A stretch of 64,000 nucleotides of DNA. Origin: Bryum argenteum. Lineage: Eukaryota; Streptophyta; Bryopsida; Bryales; Bryaceae. Numbering within the stretch: position 1 is the first letter of the stretch; each line of letters opens with the position of its first letter. The notes beneath the pieces are model-generated. The model made no database searches. It was given only the letters and a program-made list of their open reading frames with translations, and was not told the origin of the DNA. Where the stretch lies: contig CM073330.1 in assembly GCA_037043015.1 (NCBI GenBank), positions 2,753,263 to 2,817,262 on the forward strand, in the 5' to 3' direction. A program made the translations under genes and the position numbers. Of this stretch, positions 1,000 through 6,155 are shown in pieces.

Positions 1000-1094
1000 C
1001 AAAATCTCTAAAGGTTTAACCTTGAAGCGACGCACCCCAATACCTATTAATGTATTGATTGGTTATGTCTTGAAACACCTTGAAGCGACGCACC
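1000..1094. repeat. Short local duplication flanking the hAT-like element
   Basis: The sequence around CTTGAAGCGACGCACC occurs at about 1021-1040 and again at 1079-1094. The downstream partner ACCTATTAATGTATTGATTGG (1044-1063) is matched after the element at 6052-6071. The 4.9-kb element therefore appears to have landed in the second copy of a pre-existing roughly 60-70 bp duplication. Confidence 0.6.
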
Positions 1095-1294
1095 CAGGGT
1101 TGTCTTATTAGACACAATTTTCGGAATGTATGTCTGATTTGTCGTATTGGACATGTCTGTTAGACGTCGAGTCGACGAAAATGTCGACCGTACCAAAAAT
1201 TACATAGTAAAAAACTTGCTGAGATTTACCTTGAGGTAAAAAGCTATTTTCCTACGTGGCGTAGGGTTGATAATGACGTGGAAAATCAAAATAC

Positions 1295-1560
1295 ACGTCA
1301 CAGTGGGCGACCGCGGGTGGGCGACCTCGCTAGGCGACTGACGGTCGCACCGGGGCGAACGTCGGTCGCCTACTGGGATCGCCGATCGCCCTGGCTGCCG
1401 CGAGAAGGCGACCGGCGGTCGCCCTAGCAACCGCTTCTAGGCGACCTTAGGGGCAAGGACAAAGTGTCCGCGAGCCAATCTGGACCCCTTCTGTTGGGGC
1501 GACCGCCGATCCAGGTGATGGGCGAACGTAGCTCATAGGGCGACCGGCGGTCTACCCTCT
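1295..1560. repeat. GC-rich GGCGACC/GGTCGCC microrepeat block (left arm)
   Basis: Dense, imperfect repeats of the self-complementary pattern GCGACCGNCGGTCGC lie in otherwise AT-rich DNA. The same class of block recurs at about 2945-3125, 4185-4300, 4765-4925 and 5600-5840, always at the equivalent place in each module of the foldback element. The sequence is CpG-rich and should form local hairpins. The open frames running through it are low-complexity artefacts. Confidence 0.8.
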
Positions 1561-2944
1561 AGAAACAAAGGACATGAACTTTGAAGAGCCATAACTTTTT
1601 TATTCGGACTCTGTTTTTGACGAAATCACTTGGGTTGGGTCCCAAATTAATCCTAGTTTATGTGGTGAAAATTGCAGACCCATACAATTAAGTATGAAAA
1701 AATGGCATGCATTTTAGTGAAGGGAGTATTTGTTTTTGGGTTTTTAAACATTAGGCATGTTTTACCATTGCAAGCCTATTATGTGACATCAAAAAGGTTT
1801 TTGCATGATTTGTTTTAGACAAGTGTGATCTTTAGATGCATCCCACAATCTTTGTAGTTGGAAGTATTTTGATCCAGATAATTTTAGTATTGGCTTTGCA
1901 ATGATATTTCTACGATGAAAAAAGTGAAAAAGTGGATGATTTTTGAAGAGATAGATCTCCTTCAACCATCGTTAGATTTTGAATTTTCATTTTAGAATGG
2001 ATTCCAATTAGAGTGTTGTATTGGTGATAGAAACCTCGATTCATTCGAAGATATATTGAAGATAACGTATAATTTGAGTGCTAGGGATCTAGGTTTGGAC
2101 TATATTAATTACTTTATAGAATATTTGGCAGTTCTTATCATTGCAAGGCTACTATTTGAGCCATAGGGAAGTCCAAGATGTATAGGGAAATAGAGAGGGA
2201 GAGTAGTATTTATACTTTTCCTATGTATTTTATATGAAACATGATTAAAAGTTTTGGCCTATAAGATGAAGGTAAGTAGTTTCTATTAAATATCTAGGAT
2301 TAATTAAATTTGTTGAAATGGGGTGTGTGTATAAAAGGAGGGAAGAGATGATTCACTAATGATAAAAACCGCCAAATATTTTACAAAGTAATTAATATAG
2401 TCCAAACCTAGATCCCTAGCACTCAAATTATACGTTATCTTCAATATACCTTCGAATGAATCGAGGTTTCTATCACCAATACAACACTCTAATTGGAATC
2501 CATTCTAAAATGAAAATTCCAAATCTAACGATGGTTGGAGGAGATCTATCTCTTCAAAAATCATCCACTTTTTCACTTTTTTCATCTTAGAAATATCATT
2601 GCAAAGCCAATACTAAAACTATCTGGATCAAAATACTTCCAACTACAAAGATTGTGGGATGCATCTAAAGATCACACTTGTCTAAAACAAATCATGCAAA
2701 ATCCTTTTTGATGTCACATAATAGGCTTGCAATGGTAAAACATGCCAAATGTTTAAAAACCCAAATAACAAATACTCCCTTCACTAAAATGCATGCCATT
2801 TTTTCATACTTAATCGTATGAGTGTGCAATTTTTACCACCTAAACTAGACTTAATTTGGGACCCAACCCAAGTGATTTCGTCAAAAACAGAGTCCGAATG
2901 AAAACGTTATGGCTCTTCAAAGTTCATGTCCTTCGTTCGAAGAG

Positions 2945-3125
2945 GGTAGACCGCCGGTCGCCCTATGAGCTACGTTCGCCCATCACCTGGATCGGCGGTT
3001 GCCCTAGCGACCAACGTTCGCCCATCCGCTGTATCGGCGGTCGCCTAGGGGCGAACGTCGGTCGCTCATGGGCGATCGTCGGTCGCTCATGGGCGATCGT
3101 CGGTCGCTCATGGGCGATCGTCGGG
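2945..3125. repeat. GC-rich microrepeat block, internal module
   Basis: Three consecutive repeats of a unit close to GGTCGCTCATGGGCGATCGTC are visible at 3058-3123. They are preceded by the flank AGAGGGTAGACCGCCGGTCG shared with the other modules. This is the cleanest tandem stretch of the family in the element. Confidence 0.8.
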
Positions 3126-5599
3126 GGAGGCATTGGCGGGAGGCATTTGAAAATTTTGGCGGCTTAAGTATTAACGCCTTCTAATACAATTAAGAGAAAG
3201 GGGTTCGTGCATATATCCTAGTAACAAGTGAGGGAAAAAGTTGCTTGTCAAATTAAAGGGTGATATATAACATATTATAGATTTGGCAAAAAATTGAGTG
3301 ATCACCATATGAAGGTAAATATTATAAGTCGACAACAATAACCATTTACAAACATTCTAATGAACCAATTACTCATAGTAATATTTAACCCATTATTTGT
3401 GAATGACGTGCAAGTATTTGATATCACTTGCCCATATTATGATGAATAAATCAAACTTAAATATCATGACAGTCAAGATATTTTCAACACTTTGTATTTA
3501 CTACTAAGACATTATAGGAACTTGAAATAAGCGTACCTTTACTCTACTTGTCTTAGGCTCACTTTACATTGTGGACCCTCAAGATTGACCATTTGGCTTT
3601 ATAATACCTTGATGAAAGGAGAATGATCACTAACTTCAAAGTCCCCAAAGTATGCTAATTTATCCATAATGGATAATGTTTTTATGGTCTCCTTGATTGT
3701 AGTTGAGTGGAAGTAAATGCCTCAACTCAACTACTATCAAGGAGACCATGAGGCTCAAAAATCATTGATTGGCTAGAGTACAATTATTTAAAAAGAAAAT
3801 GAAGAAAAAGGGGAGGGTAAAAGAGAGAATGATGAGAATTTTATTTTAAAATTGAGATTAAACTTGTACATGTCTAAATCCATCTTGCACCAGAAGAGTG
3901 TCCAAGGCACTCAAAAATTCATTTTTCAGTTATCATGCTCCCAAGTCTTGGCCAAAAGCCATGACCATGACGATCATTTTCATTTCATTATGGAAAATGT
4001 GAAGAAGCGGAGAATATGAAATTTGAAGAAGATGGAGAATGAAAAATGAAGGGAGATTTAAGGGAAATGAGGGGGAACGGAGAAGATGCTTGAAGCGGTG
4101 AATTTGAAATTTGAATATGAGAGATTGAGGGATTGCGTAAAAGAGGATCCAAGAGCAAGAGCGGGAGCTCTTTTGCACTCGCCCCTCCAGACTGCCGGTC
4201 GCCCCAAACTGCAGTTGCAGCGGACCGGCCATCGCCATGCGGGACCGGCGGTCACCCATGCGGGACCCGCGGTCGCGCATGCGGAACCCGCGATCGCCCA
4301 TGAACGTTCTGTAATTGGAATCCATTTTAAAATAAAAATTCAAAATCTAACGATGGTTGAAGGAGATCTATCTCTTCAAAAATCATCCACTTTTTCACTT
4401 TTTTCATCGTAGAAATATCATTGCAAAGCCAATACTAAAATTATCTGGATCAAAATACTTCCAACTACAAAGATTGTGGGATGCATCTAAAGATCACACT
4501 TGTCTAAAAAACATCATGCAAAAACCTTTTTGATGTCACATAATAGGCTAACAATGGTAAAACATGCCTAATGTTTAAAAACCCAAGAAACAAGTATTCC
4601 CTTCACTAAAATGCATGCCATTTTTTCATACTTAATTGTATGGGTCTGCAATTTTCACCACATAAACTAGGATTAATTTGGGACCCAACCCAAGTGATTT
4701 CGTCAAAAACAGAGTCCGAATGAAAAAGATATGGCTCTTCAAAGTTCATGTCTTTCGTTTCTAGAGGGTAGACCGCCGGTCGCCCTATGAGCTACGTTCG
4801 CCCATCACCTGGATCGGCGGTCGCCCTACTGAGCGGCGATCGCCTTTCAGCTGTATCGGCGGTTGCCCAGGGGGCGAACGTCGGTCGCTCATGGGTGATC
4901 GTCGGTCGCTCAGGCGACCGCCGGTCCAGGCAAAGTATAAATACTACTCTCCCTCTCTATTTCCCTATACATCTTGGACTTCCCTATGGCTCAAATAGTA
5001 GCCTTGCAATGATAAGAACTGCCAAATATTCTATAAAGTAATTAATATAGTCCAAACCTAGATCCCTAGCACTCAAATTATACGTTATCTTCAATATATC
5101 TTCGAATGAATCGAGGTTTCTATCACCAATACAACACTCTAATTGGAATCCATTCTAAAATGAAAATTCAAAATCTAACGATGGTTGAAGGAGATCTATC
5201 TCTTCAAAAATCATCCACTTTTTCACTTTTTTCATCGTAGAAATATCATTGCAAAGCCAATACTAAAACTATTTGGATCAAAATACTTCCAACTACAAAG
5301 ATTGTGGGATGCATCTAAAGATCACACTTGTCTAAAACAAATCATGCAAAAACCTTTTTGATGTCACATAATAGGCTTGCAATGGTAAAACATGCCAAAT
5401 GTTTAAAAACCCAAAAAACAAATACTCCCTTCACTAAAATGCATGCCATTTTTTCATACTTAATTGTATGAGTGTGCAATTTTTACCACCTAAACTAGAC
5501 TTAATTTGGGACCCAACCCAAGTGATTTCGTCAAAAACAGAGTCCAAATGAAAAAGTTATGGCTCTTCAAAGTTCATGTCTTTCGTTTCTAGAGGGTAG

Positions 5600-5840
5600 A
5601 CCGCCGGTCGCCCTATGAGCTACGTTCGCCCATCACCTGGATCGGCGGTCGCCCTACTGAGCGGCGTTCGCCCATCGGCTGTATCGGCGGTCGCCTATGG
5701 GCGATCGTCGGTCGACCCTGGGCGATCGTCGGTCGAGCTGGGCGATCGTCGGTCGCTAAGGCGACCGCCGGTCCAGAGAAGGCAACCGCCGGTCCGGCCA
5801 AGGCGACCGCCGGTCTAGATGACGCGACCGCCGGTCCGAT
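5600..5840. repeat. GC-rich microrepeat block, right arm
   Basis: Successive GGGCGATCGTCGGTCG units are followed by AAGGCGACCGCCGGTCC units. This is the inverted partner of the 1295-1560 block in the left arm. Confidence 0.8.
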
Positions 5841-6155
5841 CCTCTACGTGCGCGATTCGCGAACCATATTCTTTGGTGTACACACTACGTGGCAGCCACG
5901 TAGGATGCAACGTGGACAGGGTAAATCCAGGGTAAAAAAAAGATTCTGTAAATTCTATTAGACATTCTGAGGCTCAATGTCTGTCTGACATGTCGTGTCT
6001 GTCTGACATCCGTCTGTGTCTAATAAGAGAACCCTGGACGCACTCCATTACCTATTAAAGTATTGATTGGTTATCTTGATACCACATATGATAGAGTTAG
6101 AGAATTAAAATATGTCAAAAGTAGGATTGTGTGTTATTATAAAATTTGACTTTGA

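Follow-up and report, generated by a model that had tools for sequence, protein, structure and literature searches.

A complete element with CAGGG...CCCTG ends was identified at positions 1095-6036 of a 64,000-nucleotide stretch of Bryum argenteum DNA (contig CM073330.1, positions 2,753,263 to 2,817,262), referred to here as the window; in the genome, the element lies at C10:2754357-2759298. We consider it probable that this element is a non-autonomous derivative of a hAT transposon of 18-20 kb, and that its GC-rich blocks are arrays predicted to bind a protein encoded by the element. The assignment to hAT is based on the 8-bp target duplication, the short terminal repeat tipped with CAGGG, and the presence of a hAT dimerisation domain in copies with the same ends. 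A CAGGG tip is typical of hAT elements, and the terminal repeats of Ac/Ds begin with CAGGG. CACTA was rejected as a candidate because the ends and the duplication were wrong, and KDZ/Zisupton, which has an 8-bp target duplication, was rejected because the transposase scores as hAT. An earlier sequence-only reading of this DNA had given the CAGGG ends, the coordinates and a 7/8 target duplication exactly as found here (GACGCACC and GACGCACT), and its prediction of a hAT element from the ends and duplication agrees with the hAT transposase of the same-end copies.

The ends belong to a family. Genome searches were performed with end queries that excluded the arrays; the best 40 of 262 candidates matched the left end with an identity of 98-100%, and the best 40 of 263 matched the right end with an identity of 94-100%. 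Among the matches listed, 20 of the 40 left ends paired with a right end within 30 kb, with pair lengths of 2.3-19.4 kb. Both flanks were read in 13 pairs (4.5-15.9 kb, window included), and the target duplications were identical at 8/8 letters in 11 of them and at 7/8 in two. The sequence-only reading had staked its interpretation on second loci of this kind; excluding the window copy, there are eleven at 8/8 and one more at 7/8. The exact 22-bp end (taken as 23 bp in that reading, which had suggested the search) occurred 179 times in the genome, as 90 + 89 for the left and right ends together, with no occurrence of the control. The core of the element (3200-4150) was present with 97-100% identity in 40 of 40 scored places, window included, from 1204 first-look candidates. 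The family is large and, as indicated by the high identity of the ends and core across copies, young and recently active.

The unit of the GC-rich arrays is a 15-bp palindrome, GCGACCG-N-CGGTCGC. At up to three mismatches, the palindrome GCGACCGNCGGTCGC was found 29 times in the window element and nowhere in the remaining 59 kb of the window, which bears out the earlier description of CpG-rich, self-complementary blocks. Each block contains 3-8 palindromes, whereas 200 dinucleotide shuffles gave means of 0.06-0.22. Genome-wide, two palindromes at a 21-bp pitch (at most two mismatches) were present at 673 places, which overlap within arrays, and the reversed control was present at none. The arrays occupy a fixed position in the family: of the 59 ends examined, 57 have an array that starts ~200 bp from the tip. 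All 30 right ends examined carry an array, with at least six palindromes in the first ~560 bp, and in 28 of the 30 the array starts 197-200 bp inside the element. Five or more palindromes were present within 600 bp in 27 of the 29 orientable left ends; one left end, L047, was dropped as its orientation could not be established by its end. The flanks were free of palindromes at 24/29 left ends and 26/30 right ends, and several of the remaining flanks appear to adjoin another copy of the family. The sequence-only reading had called such satellite-like blocks unusual inside a hAT foldback; they are subterminal in the family as a whole, and not an oddity of this copy. The right-end arrays have a 21-bp pitch, with an autocorrelation of 0.61 at lag 21, 0.50 at lag 42 and 0.38 at lag 63 (median of lags 5-69, 0.28), and the commonest palindrome steps at the left ends were 20, 21, 33, 41 and 27.

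Copies with the same ends carry coding sequence. Four left ends without the AT-rich module (L028, L031, L046 and L049) have a common frame, and the transposase frame, which starts in L086 and ends in L028, is 1073 codons long (1052 from the first ATG). It matched the Pfam domains DUF659 (PF04937; 7.8e-40, 136.5 bits) and Dimer_Tnp_hAT (PF05699; 1.7e-6, 28.1 bits, cut-off 21.4), and includes the motifs SDGWS, TDNASS and CERNWS at 257, 318 and 639, which we take to resemble the hAT catalytic blocks. A comparison with NCBIfam returned a single chance match (E 0.16), and a comparison of the first 695 residues with solved structures returned chance matches only (best E 0.53). The pooled ratio of non-synonymous to synonymous polymorphism (pN/pS) in the transposase tail was 0.35, from four copies with few changes. 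The gene reads outward and ends ~0.8 kb inside the left end. Protein-kinase-like sequence, which also reads outward, was found at the right ends L061, L070 and L073 (PF00069, 2.1e-8 for L070), and was frame-shifted in L061 and L073, two of the three. The kinase-like gene is present at C8:2354399-2355208 and at ~130 other loci. A 530-residue frame recurs in eight of the kinase matches listed, three of them without internal stops, and the ratio of non-synonymous to synonymous substitution (dN/dS) was mixed, at 0.33-1.12 (13 comparisons, six partial copies).

The two genes were observed to co-locate. The genome contained 143 matches to the transposase tail and 146 to the kinase, which merged to 137 and 133 loci, respectively. 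At 62 of the 137 transposase loci, a diverging kinase was present 8-26 kb away, in 46 cases at 15-19 kb; 300 randomisations, with guessed lengths for contigs C9 and C11, gave 2.1 on average and 7 at most. The other orientations were seen at 2 and 6 loci. The median distance was 17.1 kb, and four of the listed end pairs, which enclose both genes (C1:446463-464218, 24530523-24549905, 26022983-26042522 and 37014955-37034435), span 17.8-19.5 kb. The gene spacing of ~17 kb and the ends therefore imply a parent element of ~18-20 kb with a hAT transposase and a kinase-like protein near its opposite ends. We also noted that contig C1 (44.1 of 258.8 Mb) holds 100/137 of the transposase loci and 98/133 of the kinase loci, and that lower-identity copies seem by eye to be even more concentrated there; we speculate that C1 could be a sex chromosome or a chromosome with little recombination.

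The first 326 nt of the window element, which include part of an array, are 97.9% identical to L031, 97.2% to L049, 91% to L028 and 89% to L046, and its last 319-357 nt are 87-89% identical to the three kinase-side right ends. Since its ends are alike to those of transposase- and kinase-bearing copies, the window element is, judged by sequence, a Ds2-like non-autonomous hAT derivative, with an interior mostly unrelated to the parts of the parent DNA that were read. It would keep ~330 bp of each parent end, with inverted modules in place of the rest. One segment of its core (3729-3807) has an inverted match (76% over 80 nt, E 1.6e-9) in the DNA that precedes the transposase gene, where a weak counterpart of the core hairpin folds with a stability not clearly above that of shuffled sequences (z -0.9). 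The window copy contains no transposase: its stop-to-stop frames in 1095-6036 reach 120 amino acids in only two cases, of 137 and 122 amino acids, and these overlie core, array and end DNA.

A third array is present at the transposase promoter. The promoter region, read letter by letter in one copy on C7, contains six palindrome sites with 2-4 mismatches (L086:1290-1460), of which the last three are at a 21-bp pitch; the array is followed after 9 bp by the TATA box TATATAAGG and then by the transposase start. A genome search with this region returned 169 candidates, of which the best 40 were taken, and a same-strand transposase was found downstream at 38 of the 39 places used, with a median distance of 2.9 kb to its tail. 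The promoter region departed from the query length by multiples of 21 bp, give or take 1, in 22 of the 39 (query included), with 5.6 expected. The array units are partly different at the left end, the right end and the promoter, and the palindromic site is common to all three; it therefore resembles the site of an element-encoded regulator.

The sequence-only reading had offered hairpins, methylation targets and transposase-binding arrays as roles for the blocks. The last appears to be the best of the three, because the arrays are fixed ~200 bp inside the family ends and recur at the transposase promoter. We infer that each GC-rich block is an array of 15-bp palindromic sites recognised by a DNA-binding protein that the transposon itself encodes, and that this binding would affect both mobility and expression. 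A 15-bp palindrome repeated at two helical turns would be well suited to dimer binding along the same side of the DNA. The foremost candidate binder is the transposase, as hAT transposases bind subterminal repeats in the excerpts consulted on Hermes (PMC10368747) and Ac (PMC3260210), and it would most likely bind through a zinc-finger-like region at its N-terminus. Bound arrays at both ends may help to assemble the transposition complex, and the array before the TATA box may let the binding protein control transposase expression. The additional internal arrays of short copies might compete for the protein, and so raise the copies' own share of it or titrate it. The kinase-side protein, or a gene in the parent interior, could be a partner similar to TnpA of En/Spm, which binds subterminal repeats and can block transcription (PMC2613891, in the part consulted).

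Several observations weigh against this interpretation. The left end L025 has no subterminal array, and the left ends show no 21-bp autocorrelation peak, which is confined to the right ends. While the palindrome arms are more conserved than the spacers (1.56 vs 0.50 bits at the right ends, 1.54 vs 0.80 at the left ends), the difference is partly circular, being partly forced by motif selection; in an unselected test of the next unit, it was only 0.60 vs 0.45 at the right ends, and arms and spacers were equal at the left ends (0.32 vs 0.32). In the promoter array, GCGACCG is intact in six of six sites, but the other half is only partial, and the promoter length offset was not a multiple of 21 in 17/39 copies. 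Pfam zf-BED gave no match at E <= 0.1 in the transposase, where a Cys/His spacing is seen by eye at the N-terminus. Among the copies listed, the transposase frame is open for longest in L028, whose left array is riddled with insertions and deletions and has two sites at <=3 mismatches. Finally, target duplications were established for copies up to 15.9 kb, which is below the 18-20 kb of the parent. The small deletions in the L028 array lie inside palindromes and could reflect decay or assembly error in GC-rich palindromes.

One alternative is that the element is regulated through its arrays by a host protein that binds them, or through their methylation as CpG-rich targets, without an element-encoded binder. 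They are CpG-dense (observed/expected 0.88-1.62 per 100-bp window) in AT-rich surrounding DNA, and the GC-rich part of the CACTA subterminal motifs has been proposed to be methylation-sensitive (PMC2613891, in the part consulted). However, CpG is not depleted in the arrays, their position relative to the termini is fixed in nearly all ends examined, as expected for a transposition signal, and the terminal arrays of the large element lie past the 3' ends of both known genes and are therefore not their promoter sites there; we regard regulation of this kind as unlikely. It also seems improbable that the arrays are functionless selfish tandem repeats, an emerging satellite amplified within the element through gene conversion and slippage, on the pattern of the Drosophila virilis element Tetris, whose TIR-220 repeats turned into satellite arrays according to the excerpt consulted (PMC4079207). 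The stepwise 21-bp variation of the promoter array, the modular repetition of arrays within the element and the result of the unselected left-end test are consistent with such an origin, but units that differ in part between the left end, the right end and the transposase promoter contain the same site, symmetric 15-mers are ~4 times (right ends) and ~6 times (left ends) commoner than in letter shuffles, and the right-end unit spacing holds at about two helical turns.

A further alternative, partly compatible with arrays that bind an element-encoded protein, is that the foldback modules are the functional part, with array-TATA promoters that give rise to family-silencing hairpin RNA and the arrays as by-products. 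The modules are inverted, a TATA-like sequence follows an array after 7 bp in the window element (array A4) and also in L083, L084 and L085, and the core hairpin is strong (RNA energy -50.5 kcal/mol, z -8.3) and conserved, with 97-99% identity over 111 nt in 13 loci, or 11 places, as two pairs overlap. Against this, the array-TATA layout was not found in L081-L082, and 18/59 ends have no AT-rich module nearby in the orientation searched, yet nearly all ends have arrays; we consider this alternative very unlikely. Beyond the binding of the arrays by an element-encoded protein, a more extensive scheme would have one palindromic 21-bp array module of a giant hAT act in transposition, as its signal, and in the control of the transposase promoter. 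The kinase-like accessory would travel along and perhaps modify the array binder, and short derivatives would have become inverted cassettes of array plus TATA by which the system is titrated or silenced. This scheme is conceivable, but doubtful as a whole.

The window element comprises five GC-rich arrays, four AT-rich modules and one core (Table 1). Its inverted arms are formed by 1733-2222, which pairs with 4928-5417 (490 nt, 99%), and by an extension in which 1497-1748 pairs with 5403-5654 (95%). The arms of ~1.1 kb described by the sequence-only reading are accurate as a span, whereas only ~0.73 kb per arm pairs (95-99%). The arms start ~400 bp inside the element ends and contain tandem repeats (21- and 42-bp arrays), and the outermost ~200 bp showed no long pairing among the 25 longest of 45 inverted pairs. 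The term "foldback" thus fits only in part, because the element ends in repeats of 22 bp and its long inverted arms lie in the interior. An AT-rich module stretch of at least 480 nt begins within 700 bp of 41/59 ends (mirror orientation only searched), and both inverted arms are present in 8/13 flanked pairs; the foldback structure is therefore common but not universal, while the arrays are nearly universal. In the eight pairs with both arms, the similarity of an element's own arm ranked 2, 4, 7, 17, 4, 1, 1 and 19 of 20. The idea that the arms generally stem from recent duplication within an element was rejected, as the own arm was not consistently the closest; the internal expansion proposed earlier is supported only in part, by the repeated and inverted modules. 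A structured RNA of a known family was also rejected, as Rfam gave no match at the gathering threshold in 1000-6100.

Table 1. Features of the window element and its flanks (window positions).
Feature	Position	Strand	Remarks
Left target-site duplication GACGCACC	1087..1094		7/8 letters identical to 6037-6044
Left 22-bp terminal inverted repeat CAGGGTTGTCTTATTAGACACA	1095..1116	+	
Left subterminal unique region	1117..1306	+	Alignment to transposase-bearing left ends
GC array A1	1307..1554		7 palindromes at <=3 mismatches
AT-rich module M1	1560..2222	-	Inverted relative to M2-M4
AT-rich module M2	2358..2946	+	Direct and inverted repeat pairs
GC array A2	2947..3128		Tandem-repeat and palindrome scans
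Family core	3129..4187		3200-4150 conserved across copies
Core hairpin	3684..3749		28-bp stem, 10-nt spacer
GC array A3	4188..4297		Palindrome scan
AT-rich module M3	4309..4768	+	Direct and inverted repeat pairs
GC array A4	4769..4928		Palindrome scan
AT-rich module M4	4929..5596	+	Inverted partner of M1
TATA-like TATAAAT (TATAAATA)	4936..4942	+	7 bp past last A4 palindrome; unique to A4 among the five arrays
GC array A5	5597..5838		From 5680, eight consecutive palindromes (<=4 mismatches) at 19-21 bp steps
Right subterminal unique region	5839..6014	+	Alignment to kinase-side right ends
Right 22-bp terminal inverted repeat	6015..6036	-	One mismatch relative to left repeat
Right target-site duplication GACGCACT	6037..6044		Read from flank

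The insertion site adjoins a short tandem duplication (GACGCACC..ATTGATTGGTTAT), with 1029-1066 and 6037-6074 being 92% identical across the element. Tandem repeats with periods of 78, 155 and 234 bp are present at 136-772, just left of the element, and the proteins encoded in the window include one of GH32 (invertase) type and one of SNF2 type. Elsewhere in the genome, inverted core pairs ~5-6 kb apart (C1:25350824/25356029, C3:25501790/25507453 and C6:18172815/18178121) form larger composite foldbacks. The 15.9-kb copy L081-L082 (C6:11804229-11820088) holds a Ty3/gypsy-like retrotransposon with long open frames, as read from the translations.

In the excerpts consulted of the sources cited here, one of the closest known arrangements is that of the Ds2 class of maize Ac/Ds, which also has 8-bp duplications and short terminal repeats, of 11 bp in Ac/Ds. 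Its non-autonomous copies retain a few hundred bp from either parent terminus around unrelated filler, and the subterminal repeats are bound by the transposase (PMC3260210), a binding predicted in the moss element. Ac is 4.6 kb long and has AAACGG hexamers (PMC3260210), whereas the moss parent would be ~18-20 kb long with arrays of 15-bp GC-rich palindromes. The filler of the moss element, unlike that of Ds2, consists of inverted array modules, and an array is also present at the transposase promoter. The left end of Hermes similarly has a pair of quasi-palindromic subterminal repeats, bound cooperatively by two BED domains, but its sites are AAGT-type and AT-rich and lie near the tips, and the excerpt makes no mention of GC-rich palindrome arrays (PMC10368747). 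Among CACTA elements, Tgmt* is a long putative autonomous element (20.5 kb) with many palindrome-forming subterminal repeats (PMC2613891). En/Spm and Tgmt* differ in their CACTA ends, 3-bp duplication and transposase, and what they have in common with the moss element is layout rather than ancestry. Foldback elements such as Tetris are likewise modular, rearranged and non-autonomous, with tandem repeats within the inverted arms; the 220-bp repeats of Tetris lie inside its terminal inverted repeats (PMC4079207), whereas the moss terminal repeats are 22 bp and the arms internal.

In open-licence literature on foldback hAT, kinase-cargo hAT and moss hAT elements, this arrangement was not described in the titles and abstract openings of the matches listed. 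Plant hAT elements are usually a few kb long, with short, scattered transposase sites. A parent of 18-20 kb, in which dozens of copies keep a kinase-like gene and the transposase gene ~17 kb apart and one palindromic array is reused at either end and before the transposase gene, would represent a hAT element reaching a CACTA-like layout. Such a family would open feedback control of transposition to direct testing and, with dozens of young copies of varied array length, array number could be related to the success of a copy.

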